Source: Nitrospirota bacterium
GTDB lineage: Bacteria; Nitrospirota; UBA9217
NCBI GenBank assembly: GCA_020052615.1
Contig: JAGVOT010000116.1
Coordinates: forward strand, 1-36,707
DNA: 36,707 bases
Direction: 5' to 3'
The position numbers and the translations under genes were made by a program. Position 1 is the first letter of the stretch; the number at the start of each line of letters is the position of its first letter. This document shows, piece by piece, positions 144 to 12,793 of this stretch. The notes beneath the pieces were generated by a model that ran no database searches, was not told the origin of the DNA, and saw only the letters and a program-made list of their open reading frames with translations.

Positions 144-219
144 TGGAGCCCATGAGCGGGATTGAACCGCTGACCTCATCCTTACCAAGGATGTGCTCTA
201 CCAACTGAGCTACATGGGC
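144..219 (-). tRNA. tRNA-Thr (anticodon GGT)
   Basis: A full cloverleaf can be read on the minus strand. The acceptor stem is GCCCATG/CATGGGC, the D arm contains AGCTCAGTTGGTAGAGC, the anticodon loop is CTTGGTA with anticodon GGT, and the T loop is GGTTCAATCCC. Length is 76 with the 3' CCA encoded (144-146 on plus). It is the last tRNA before tuf, matching thrT of E. coli in order and anticodon. Confidence 0.95.
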
Positions 220-315
220 ATTAAACTCAGATGACAGAAGACCTGCAACCAGTCTACAGACATCTACATGTTCCTATTGTCCGTGCTCTGCGCTCTGTTC
301 TCTGTCTATTGCTTA

Positions 316-392
316 TGGAGCGGGAAACGGGATTCGAACCCGCGACCCCAAGCTTGGAAGGCTTGCGCTCTAGCCAGCTGAGCTATTCCCGC
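316..392 (-). tRNA. tRNA-Gly (anticodon TCC)
   Basis: Minus strand: acceptor GCGGGAA pairs with the 3' arm TTCCCGC followed by TCCA. The D arm is AGCTCAGCTGGCTAGAGC, the anticodon arm AAGCCTTCCAAGCTT carries anticodon TCC, and the T arm is GGGTTCGAATCCC. Length is 77 with encoded CCA. It corresponds to glyT of the E. coli tufB operon. Confidence 0.95.
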
Positions 393-471
393 GTACAATT
401 GCCGATCCCGGACAGCCGATCCCGGAGGGTAAACCACACCCCGCGATCATGAGATCCGTACTAATATGAAG

Positions 472-557
472 TGGTGGGGAGGGGAGGTTTCGAACCTCCG
501 TAGGCTGACGCCGACAGATTTACAGTCTGTTCCCTTTGGCCACTCGGGCACCTCCCC
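472..557 (-). tRNA. tRNA-Tyr (anticodon GTA)
   Basis: Minus strand: acceptor GGGGAGG, the class II D arm GCCCGAGTGGCCAAAGGG, anticodon arm ACAGACTGTAAATCTGT with anticodon GTA, an expanded variable arm, T arm GGAGGTTCGAAACCTCC, and encoded CCA. The length of 86 and the long variable arm are as expected for bacterial tRNA-Tyr. It corresponds to tyrU. Confidence 0.95.
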
Positions 558-612
558 GAATAACAACTGCCTTTACGTAATGGGTGATTTGATGCTGTAA
601 CCGGTAGATAGC

Positions 613-688
613 TGGAGCCACCGGAGGGAATCGAACCCACGACAGGCTGATTACAAATCAGCTACTCTACCAACTGAGTTACGGTGGC
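613..688 (-). tRNA. tRNA-Thr (anticodon TGT)
   Basis: Minus strand: acceptor GCCACCG/CGGTGGC, D arm AACTCAGTTGGTAGAGT, anticodon arm CTGATTTGTAATCAG with anticodon TGT, T arm GTGGGTTCGATTCCC, and encoded CCA; 76 bases. It is the promoter-proximal tRNA of the cluster, as thrU is in E. coli. Confidence 0.95.
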
Positions 689-10244: not shown

Positions 10245-12170
10245 TTATCGGGAAATCGCTCCCCGGTTCTTCCCGGCATCCAGCGCTTCATGCGCCACGC
10301 CTGCCTTTGCTTCTTTCCATCTTCGCCGCAACTTCTTCACATCTTCGCCCTTCGCCTCTTTTACCTTGAGCTGCTTGTCCTCTGCGGCAAGCTTCACCAT
10401 CGCCTCACGAATTCCCCTGTCCAACTTCTGATACTTGACCGGATCGGACTTGGGTATCGAGAAATCCCCGCTCGTCCTCCAGATGTCGCCCAGTCTCATC
10501 CAGGCGGCGAAGTTCTCGATCTTCCCGCCTTCGAGCAGCTTTATCTTCGAGGTCGCCTTGATATCGACAACCCGCAGACCTTCCTTGTCCGCCACGACCT
10601 TCTGGCTTCCCGAGAAAGGTTCAGCGCCCTGGTTGTCGAAGTACTCCCACGTCACCTTCGCGACCTGCGTCTGAGAGGCATGGCAGCTTTCACAACTTCG
10701 TGACTTTCCGAGCGGATGGGCAACCTGCTCCACTTGCAGCCAGGCGAGATAGTTGTTGTTCCCGGCCGGTACGCTGAAGGTGCCGAGCTGAACAAAGGCA
10801 TCCCGCGTCTCGCCCTTGGGCCATCGCCACGTGAGGCCCTGCTTCGGCTGAATTTCTTCCTTAATGTAACCCGCGCTGTTCGGCCAGATCTTCGTGGGTA
10901 TCCAGATCCCCTTCTGGTCCTTGATCAATATTGGCGGCTCCATGGGGCCGTAATATAACGAATACTTCTTGAAGGGGCTCGGCCTTGACGCGACCATGCC
11001 GCTCCCCCAGGAGGTCATCTCGTAGCCGCCGAGTATCTTCACGTGGCAGGCCTCACAGGAAACGTTCTTGTGCACGCTTGCTGCCATGGCCTGTTCCACC
11101 TCGGGGTGGCAGTCCTGGCAGGTGGCCCTGCGCTCGATGTGTCCCATGCCGCCAGGTCCGGTCTGATGGCAGTCGACGCACTCCATCTTCTCCTTCACGT
11201 GGACATCCTCGGGAAGACCTGCCGGTTCGGAGAAGTCTTTTCCCAAATAGCTGTCACCGCGCCTGCGCTCCATGGTCCCGGCATGGCACACGAAGGTGCT
11301 TCTGCCGCCGCCGGTGCAGTTCGCAGCAGGAGGGACACGGCTCATGGCGTGGCTGCCGCGTTCACGGGTGGGTGTGTAGTGGCAGTCGAGGCAGCCTGTG
11401 TGGCAGAGGTTGCAGGCCTTCTGCTTGGCGACCGCCTGATCGTACGTAACGGGCTGATTGATCTCGTCGATGATCTTTGTAGTATTCTGGAAGGAGAACC
11501 GGTCGCCTTCAGCCCTGCCGACCGGCAGGGTATCTGCAAAAGAAGGCCCTCAATTGTTCGGCCCGTGGATATCGTTCCACGTCCGCATTGACCGCTGGCG
11601 GAAATTTGACCCCATGACGCTCGTGTCGAACTGCGCCACCTGGTCGGGATGGCAGGCTGACTTGCCGCAGGTCTTTTTCGCGATCGCAGGATCGTAGCCG
11701 AGGGTCTCGGGATTCCGGTCATGCCACATCAGGGTGCCCACGTCATAATCGAGCTCGCCATTCTTGGTGCGCGGAAGCATGGCGCGAAGACGATCATCGC
11801 CGGCAGGGAGCAGCCGCTCGACATGGCCCTTGCGCGGAATGATGTTCAGGTCATTGTCCAGCACGATGAGCTTCAGCATGCCCTTGTGCGCCTTGTCGGG
11901 ATCGTCCGAGAGGCCGTTGCCGAGATGGCAGTCACGGCATTCTGTGTTCGGGTGGCGGGACTCCTTCTGGACCTGCTCGCGGGTCATGACGAACTGGGGA
12001 TAGCCCAGTTTCGTCATGCGGACGGTATCGCCGTGACAGGAGACGCACCGATCGCTCGACTGGTAGCCGGTATAATAATGAAGGAACGCGAGCAAAAGGA
12101 CGAGCTGAATGATCAGGATGATCATCCCGCGGCGGGACCCGAAGAAGTTCCAGAGCTTTCCGATAGCCAT
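10245..12170 (-). CDS. Membrane-anchored multiheme cytochrome c with in-frame TGA (probable selenocysteine 207)
   Basis: One frame runs from the ATG at 12170 to 10245 with a single TGA at 11552-11550, giving 641 residues if the TGA is read. Residues 12-31 are a membrane anchor (MIILIIQLVLLLAFLHYYTG), NapC-like in position. Eight CxxCH heme sites are visible: 42-46, 78-82, 253-257, 260-264, 331-335, 351-355, 372-376 and 493-497. Two non-canonical candidates are CGKSACH (168-174) and C285-x9-CH296. The protein is thus a periplasm-facing electron carrier of 8-10 hemes. Three heme motifs precede the TGA and seven follow, all in one frame with no indel, which argues against decay. A SECIS-like hairpin starts two bases after the TGA. 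The start overlaps the AbrB stop (TAATG). The redox partner is unknown. The alternative is a simple nonsense mutation. Confidence 0.75.
11505..11552 (-). promoter_or_regulatory. Putative bacterial SECIS element directly after in-frame TGA
   Basis: Minus strand: TGA (11552-11550), then an outer stem GCCTTC (11547-11542) paired with GAAGGC (11510-11505), and an inner perfect 7-bp stem CCCTGCC (11530-11524) / GGCAGGG (11519-11513) closed by the tetraloop GGTC. The loop begins 27 bases after the TGA (26 between). GGUC is also the apical loop of the E. coli fdhF SECIS, and a G at the start of the loop and a loop roughly 16-37 bases from the UGA are recalled features of bacterial SECIS elements. 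No bulged U is obvious in the upper stem. Confidence 0.6.
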
Positions 12171-12376
12171 TAACGGTCCTCGCACTCGCGAACAGCCGTT
12201 GCTGCTTTTATCTTGATAAATCCCTTATACGATGCAAGTGGGCGTTGGGGAATCAGGTAAATAATTCCCCCCTTTGCCACGAGGACTATCTTCTGGCCGA
12301 TTTTCAAATGTAGTTTTTCCCGCACCTCTTTGGGAATAGATACTTGGAATTTCCTGGTTATTGTCATTGTCGTCAT
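12170..12376 (-). CDS. AbrB/MazE-type swapped-hairpin antitoxin-like protein
   Basis: A 68-residue protein. The N-terminal half (ITRKFQVSIPKEVREKLHLK then IGQKIVLVAKGG) is the SpoVT/AbrB swapped-hairpin DNA-binding domain seen in VapB and MazE antitoxins. The C-terminal half is where such antitoxins usually contact their toxin. It starts 12 bases after the PIN-domain stop and its stop overlaps the cytochrome ATG (TAATG), so it is translationally placed between the toxin and the cytochrome. AbrB-type antitoxins normally come before their PIN toxin; here it follows. It may be a second antitoxin, a regulator of this transcript, or a remnant of another pair. Confidence 0.82.
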   Translation of the reverse strand: MTTMTITRKFQVSIPKEVREKLHLKIGQKIVLVAKGGIIYLIPQRPLASYKGFIKIKAATAVRECEDR

Positions 12377-12388
12377 GTGAGCAGTTTT

Positions 12389-12793
12389 TCACGGCACAAT
12401 AGTGAAATGCGTGCAATGTTTGGGTCGATAGCGTGAAAAGTCCCGGCGGTCGAGCGTGAAGATCTTCCTGATATTGTGGTGCTCGGCGATAGCGACAAGC
12501 GAGGCGTCCGCCAGGTCCATAGGGTTGTCGGAATATTTTTTCATCAATTCGCGGATGCGGGGATGCAATTCATCGGAAATATCCTCGACGTGAACTCCTC
12601 CGGAAAGAATAAAGTCCCAAAGTTTACTTTGGCCCCTTTCCCAATTGCCGAGAAAATGAAAGGCCTCTGTAAGGACCGGCCACGTCGTCACGGGCGCATT
12701 CACTTGCTTTTTCAGTGCCGCAAAACAATGCTTATGTGCCGGCTCGGTATCATCGAACAGAGCGACAAGCGGCCCCGTGTCTATAATGACCAT
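12389..12793 (-). CDS. PIN-domain ribonuclease, VapC-like toxin
   Basis: A 134-residue PIN domain. Acidic residues of the metal site are visible: Asp5 in MVIIDTGPLVALFDD, Glu43 in VLTEAFHFLG, Asp93/Asp96 in PMDLADASLVAIAE and Asp115 in IFTLDRRDF. Such toxins cut RNA and are held in check by a cognate antitoxin. The start overlaps the last 13 bases of the ribbon-helix-helix gene, the usual arrangement of an antitoxin-toxin pair. Length is typical. The RNA target is unknown. Confidence 0.88.
   Translation of the reverse strand: MVIIDTGPLVALFDDTEPAHKHCFAALKKQVNAPVTTWPVLTEAFHFLGNWERGQSKLWDFILSGGVHVEDISDELHPRIRELMKKYSDNPMDLADASLVAIAEHHNIRKIFTLDRRDFSRYRPKHCTHFTIVP

Follow-up and report, generated by a model that had tools for sequence, protein, structure and literature searches.

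Multiheme c-type cytochromes that contain selenocysteine (Sec) have been described before. An earlier study proposed that ExtKL, found in Geobacter ext clusters, is a Sec cytochrome tied to selenite reduction (PMC5877670). A 2026 inventory of 119 prokaryotic selenoprotein families and subfamilies includes ExtKL (NF040886) as well as a GenBank-annotated octaheme cytochrome of family TIGR04315 (PMC13188914). Here, we analysed a decaheme cytochrome gene with one in-frame TGA, located in a 36,707-nucleotide stretch of Nitrospirota DNA (the window), which is a complete contig of a 3.99-Mb draft genome.

The decaheme cytochrome resembles ExtKL in being a multiheme c-type cytochrome whose single Sec is encoded by an in-frame TGA (PMC5877670, PMC13188914). 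By contrast, ExtKL has five hemes and ~420 residues, and its Sec lies in the motif AGHxIPDG-U-PTPNR. An assignment to ExtKL was rejected: the NF040886 model gave no match at E ≤ 10, and hhalign returned a probability of 4%, with the similarity confined to one heme motif. The window's genome has two ExtKL-type (NF040886) genes of its own, with one in-frame TGA each (G000:C8:63109-64380(-) and G000:C16:9612-10730(-)), and ExtKL-type genes also occur in related Nitrospirota genomes.

The decaheme cytochrome reaches the cut-off of no NCBIfam model. The nearest model is ExtN (NF040967), a 10-heme protein of the ext cluster, with weak profile similarity over hemes 4–9 (residues 249–377); in a paralogue (L031), the ExtN match spans residues 155–389. 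With a score of 25.6 bits against a curated cut-off of 200, and 55.5 for the best relative, identity with ExtN was rejected. ExtN is not named as a selenoprotein in the 119-family inventory or in the literature examined. The octaheme tetrathionate reductase family TIGR04315 likewise combines a multiheme cytochrome with a Sec entry (PMC13188914). Its profile did not match the decaheme cytochrome at E ≤ 10, which excludes this assignment, and a search of the window's genome for TIGR04315, run without a positive control, found none.

MccA is an octaheme sulfite reductase with a heme–copper site, an unusually spaced heme motif and active-site cysteines outside heme attachment. The decaheme cytochrome has in common with it the multiheme character, odd heme motif spacing and non-heme cysteine(s), an analogy that may serve as a lead only, whereas a PDB sequence search and a fold comparison gave no match between the two.

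We place the decaheme cytochrome in a new family of Sec multiheme cytochromes because it is distinct from ExtKL, falls below the ExtN cut-off and is absent from the inventory. The earlier note knew of no established selenoprotein of this cytochrome type. This stands for the family, as nothing in the inventory matches it (PMC13188914), with annotation elsewhere possible beyond the open-licence literature; it does not stand for the kind, since ExtKL and TIGR04315 are known Sec multiheme cytochromes.

Reading frame and heme motifs

The frame 12170-10245(-) contains a single internal stop, the TGA at 11552-11550 (U207), and in-frame translation confirmed what the earlier note had described: one continuous frame broken at codon 207 without a frameshift, with a predicted product of 641 residues when TGA is read as Sec (Table 1). 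Homologues align over the full length of the cytochrome with 44–90% identity, and those relatives that carry names in public collections are metagenome assemblies assigned to Nitrospirota/Nitrospirae (Hainich H41-bin277, GWC2_56_14).

Table 1 Features of the decaheme cytochrome gene (window coordinates)
Feature	Position	Strand	Remarks
Coding sequence, decaheme selenocytochrome (predicted)	10245..12170	-	641 aa plus TAA stop (10247-10245); translated with TGA as Sec
Predicted membrane anchor, residues 13-37	12060..12134	-	Hydrophobic IILIIQLVLLLAFLHYY; single long helix in AlphaFold2 model
Heme motif 1, CVSCH (42-46)	12033..12047	-	Invariant
Heme motif 2, CRDCH (78-82)	11925..11939	-	Invariant
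Heme motif 3, CX4CH, CGKSACH (168-174)	11649..11669	-	C168, C173 and H174 invariant; nearest motif preceding Sec
Sec motif HGPNN-U-GPSFAD (202-213)	11532..11567	-	Conserved; G203, P204, C/U207 and G208 invariant
Predicted Sec codon 207, in-frame TGA	11550..11552	-	TGA in 11 of 12 homologues from the same family and in 3 from a second family; others Cys
Proposed whole SECIS, TGA plus 45 nt 3'	11505..11552	-	Alignment A4, mean column identity 93%
Putative SECIS apical hairpin, 7-bp stem CCCTGCC/GGCAGGG	11513..11530	-	Loop GGTC at 11523-11520; peak synonymous-site conservation
Heme motif 4, CNLCH (253-257)	11400..11414	-	C253, C256 and H257 invariant
Heme motif 5, CLDCH (260-264)	11379..11393	-	Invariant
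Putative heme motif 6, CX9CH, CTGGGRSTFVCH (285-296)	11283..11318	-	C285, C295 and H296 invariant; heme binding inferred
Heme motif 7, CVDCH (331-335)	11166..11180	-	Invariant
Heme motif 8, CQDCH (351-355)	11106..11120	-	Invariant
Heme motif 9, CEACH (372-376)	11043..11057	-	58 of 59, the remaining one X
Heme motif 10, CESCH (493-497)	10680..10694	-	Invariant

The cytochrome has ten heme-type motifs, comprising eight CXXCH, one CX4CH and one CX9CH, in columns that are invariant or nearly so in an alignment of 59 sequences. Two CXXCH and the CX4CH motif precede codon 207, while six CXXCH and the CX9CH motif follow it. The earlier count of three motifs before the TGA and seven after it was thus correct, but its single non-canonical motif becomes two, as the last of the three preceding motifs is CX4CH. 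Outside the CXnCH motifs, the same alignment has a single invariant Cys/Sec, at residue 207. Two Pfam domains of the c7/c3 type, PF14522 and PF14537, exceed their cut-offs. Confidence in the AlphaFold2 model is high (mean pLDDT 86.7, pTM 0.85), and comparing the model's fold with the PDB and viral models gave no significant match. We infer a single-pass, inner-membrane-anchored periplasmic decaheme protein, with heme loading and topology predicted from the sequence.

If the TGA were a true stop, the gene would be broken or split, yielding a truncated protein of 206 residues and perhaps a second protein restarting at the ATG at 11345. This is what a standard gene caller would suggest, as the standard ORF list divides the gene into 12185-11550 and 11345-10245. 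We consider this highly improbable, since there is no frameshift, Cys-containing relatives have a single continuous frame, and 14 genes share the TGA at this codon, with the region 3' of it remaining under purifying selection. Codons 208–275 contain two heme motifs ahead of the potential restart codon (ATG, codon 276) and show 13 non-synonymous versus 24 synonymous differences among the nearest relatives. Both this substitution pattern and the position of the two motifs speak against a truncated or restarted protein.

The neighbours of the gene in the window's taxonomic family (labelled f1) are housekeeping genes, none of them informative on function, and no ext cluster is present at the locus. 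Immediately 5' of the cytochrome, at about 12171-12380(-), a frame resembles an AbrB-type antitoxin, followed further upstream by a PIN-domain toxin-like gene (12389-12793(-)). The latter has a counterpart upstream of the cytochrome homologue in genome G001. Elsewhere in the window, four tRNA genes stand in a row at 144-688(-): Thr(GGT), Gly(TCC), Tyr(GTA) and Thr(TGT).

Sec and Cys at codon 207

Within f1, 14 genomes were searched and 13 contained the gene. The site was covered in 12 of these, with TGA in 11 and TGT in one (L013, genome G005), the sole Cys case among them. Across the phylum, 91 of 396 genomes carry a strong homologue. All sites read outside f1 are TGC or TGT, save those of G147 and G231, which both belong to a second family (labelled f11); a full search of f11 added a third TGA gene, in G396. 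The phylum scan had flagged five homologues outside f1 for TGA, only the G147 and G231 codons being at the Sec site. The flagged TGA of G016 occupies a C-terminal position and is not the Sec site, and in G048 and G235 the Sec site is Cys. More distant paralogues in f1 (L030–L035; 36–41% identity) have nine CXXCH motifs and a Cys at the site, within GPQSCG, GTQSCG or GPHNCG.

Column 207 is Cys or Sec throughout the 59 aligned sequences, and the homologue comparison proposed in the earlier note returned only Cys codons or TGA. A phylogenetic tree, built before G396 was found, requires at least four changes between Sec and Cys labels, and well-supported branches make three of these unavoidable. 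Such repeated replacement of Sec by Cys, and the reverse, at one site is a classical signature of a Sec codon. The 14 genes with TGA come from separate assemblies, so sequencing error is excluded, and with it the possibility raised earlier that resequencing would reveal a sense codon.

Reading of the TGA as another amino acid, for instance Trp through an altered code or a nonspecific suppressor, would look similar at the DNA level. The column, however, is Cys and never Trp, and the other long frames of the window are open without any reading of TGA. In addition, the genome has a full Sec system, and the TGA is followed by a SECIS-like hairpin that the TGT relative has lost. We therefore give non-Sec readthrough very little weight; decoding of codon 207 as Sec is, on the sequence evidence, very probable.

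SECIS-like hairpin and decoding machinery

The hairpin reported in the earlier note was confirmed as a perfect 7-bp stem with a GGTC loop that starts 26 nt past the TGA (CCCTGCC-GGTC-GGCAGGG, 11530-11513), with a folding energy of -13.4 kcal/mol. It coincides with codons 214–225, which of all 12-codon stretches in the gene have the highest synonymous-site conservation (0.849, against a gene mean of 0.581 with an s.d. of 0.080). When this stretch of the window was synonymously recoded, an equally stable hairpin arose in 25 of 2,000 trials. For L020, the same procedure gave 262 of 2,000, which is not unusual, and some homologues behave likewise. The bacterial SECIS search that had been proposed came back empty, an Rfam scan of the hairpin region giving no SECIS family match. 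Because of this, and because some hairpins are ordinary under recoding, it is conservation, and not any single fold, that makes the case for a SECIS.

Among the 11 f1 genes with TGA, the GGTC loop is constant, as are five of the seven stem pairs. The other two pairs each show a compensated change (U-A to A-U and G-C to U-A), a covariation that comprises two compensatory pairs in few sequences and was reached by 14 of 500 shuffles. The hairpin is thus kept in the TGA relatives, with the fourth stem pair mismatched in 4 of the 11, whereas the TGT relative (G005) has lost both the GGTC loop and the stem but retains an intact reading frame. The three TGA genes of f11 have a hairpin of their own, CCTCC-GTC-GGAGG, with the loop at the same 26-nt spacing. 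Mean hairpin stability is -9.0 kcal/mol for TGA genes versus -2.9 kcal/mol for Cys genes, in a comparison that ignores relatedness. One Cys gene of f11 (L088, genome G108) has a hairpin where the SECIS would lie (CTTCC-GGC-GGAAG) and shares the GPQN motif with the TGA genes; it may descend from a gene that once encoded Sec.

The sel genes that the earlier note suggested looking for are present in the window's genome. The genes selB and selA are adjacent, selD itself carries an in-frame TGA, and there are two tRNA-Sec genes with anticodon TCA (G000:C50:31653-31747(-) and G000:C130:47997-48087(+)). In f11, selB was also found in both TGA genomes tested and in the Cys genomes tested. The TGT genome G005, which is 96% complete, gave no strong selB match, yet it contains two ExtKL genes with an in-frame TGA. 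We therefore do not read its Cys codon as a simple result of lost Sec decoding; the missing selB is possibly an assembly gap.

The proposal of a Sec-containing cytochrome thus held up against the residues of homologues, the sel genes, the hairpin and the recurrence of TGA. Sec207 would be inserted by the genome's own SelA/SelB/SelD/tRNA-Sec system, with decoding directed by the SECIS hairpin inside the coding sequence, its GGUC loop lying 26 nt downstream of the TGA. The residue would stand in for the family's only invariant Cys outside the heme motifs, just past the CX4CH motif.

Possible roles of Sec207

We lean, with some reserve, towards Sec207 being redox-active, or serving as a ligand, next to a heme. 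Electrons could move in either direction between the periplasmic heme chain and a selenolate close to the third (CX4CH) heme. The conserved residues M186, R191, R193 and W198, together with the GPNN-U-GPSFAD loop, resemble a putative binding pocket, for which the candidate substrates are oxyanions of sulfur or selenium, or an oxidant.

The position may instead be structural or redox-tuning and not catalytic, for example a thiol or selenol neighbouring a heme, with Sec and Cys interchangeable at little gain. This concerns the mechanism and leaves Sec decoding untouched. It would fit a phylum that is mostly Cys, lineages that switch between Sec and Cys, and the lack of an operon partner hinting at a dedicated reaction; the absolute conservation of the thiol or selenol and of its surrounding motif speaks against it, as does the persistence of a costly Sec codon across nearly all of f1 and, repeatedly, in f11. 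On balance we regard a structural or tuning role as a tentative option that deserves to be kept in mind. Direct ligation by the Sec207 selenolate of a heme iron, or of a second metal facing the heme, appears unlikely; if true, it would constitute a natural selenium–heme enzyme and a new type of active site in Nitrospirota.

The family would mean that Sec entered multiheme cytochromes at an invariant position in a lineage of proteins unrelated to ExtKL by profile comparison. Ordinary gene callers would split the gene in all 14 TGA members. As related genomes hold many Cys and some Sec forms of the protein, the benefit of selenium beside a heme would be directly testable.
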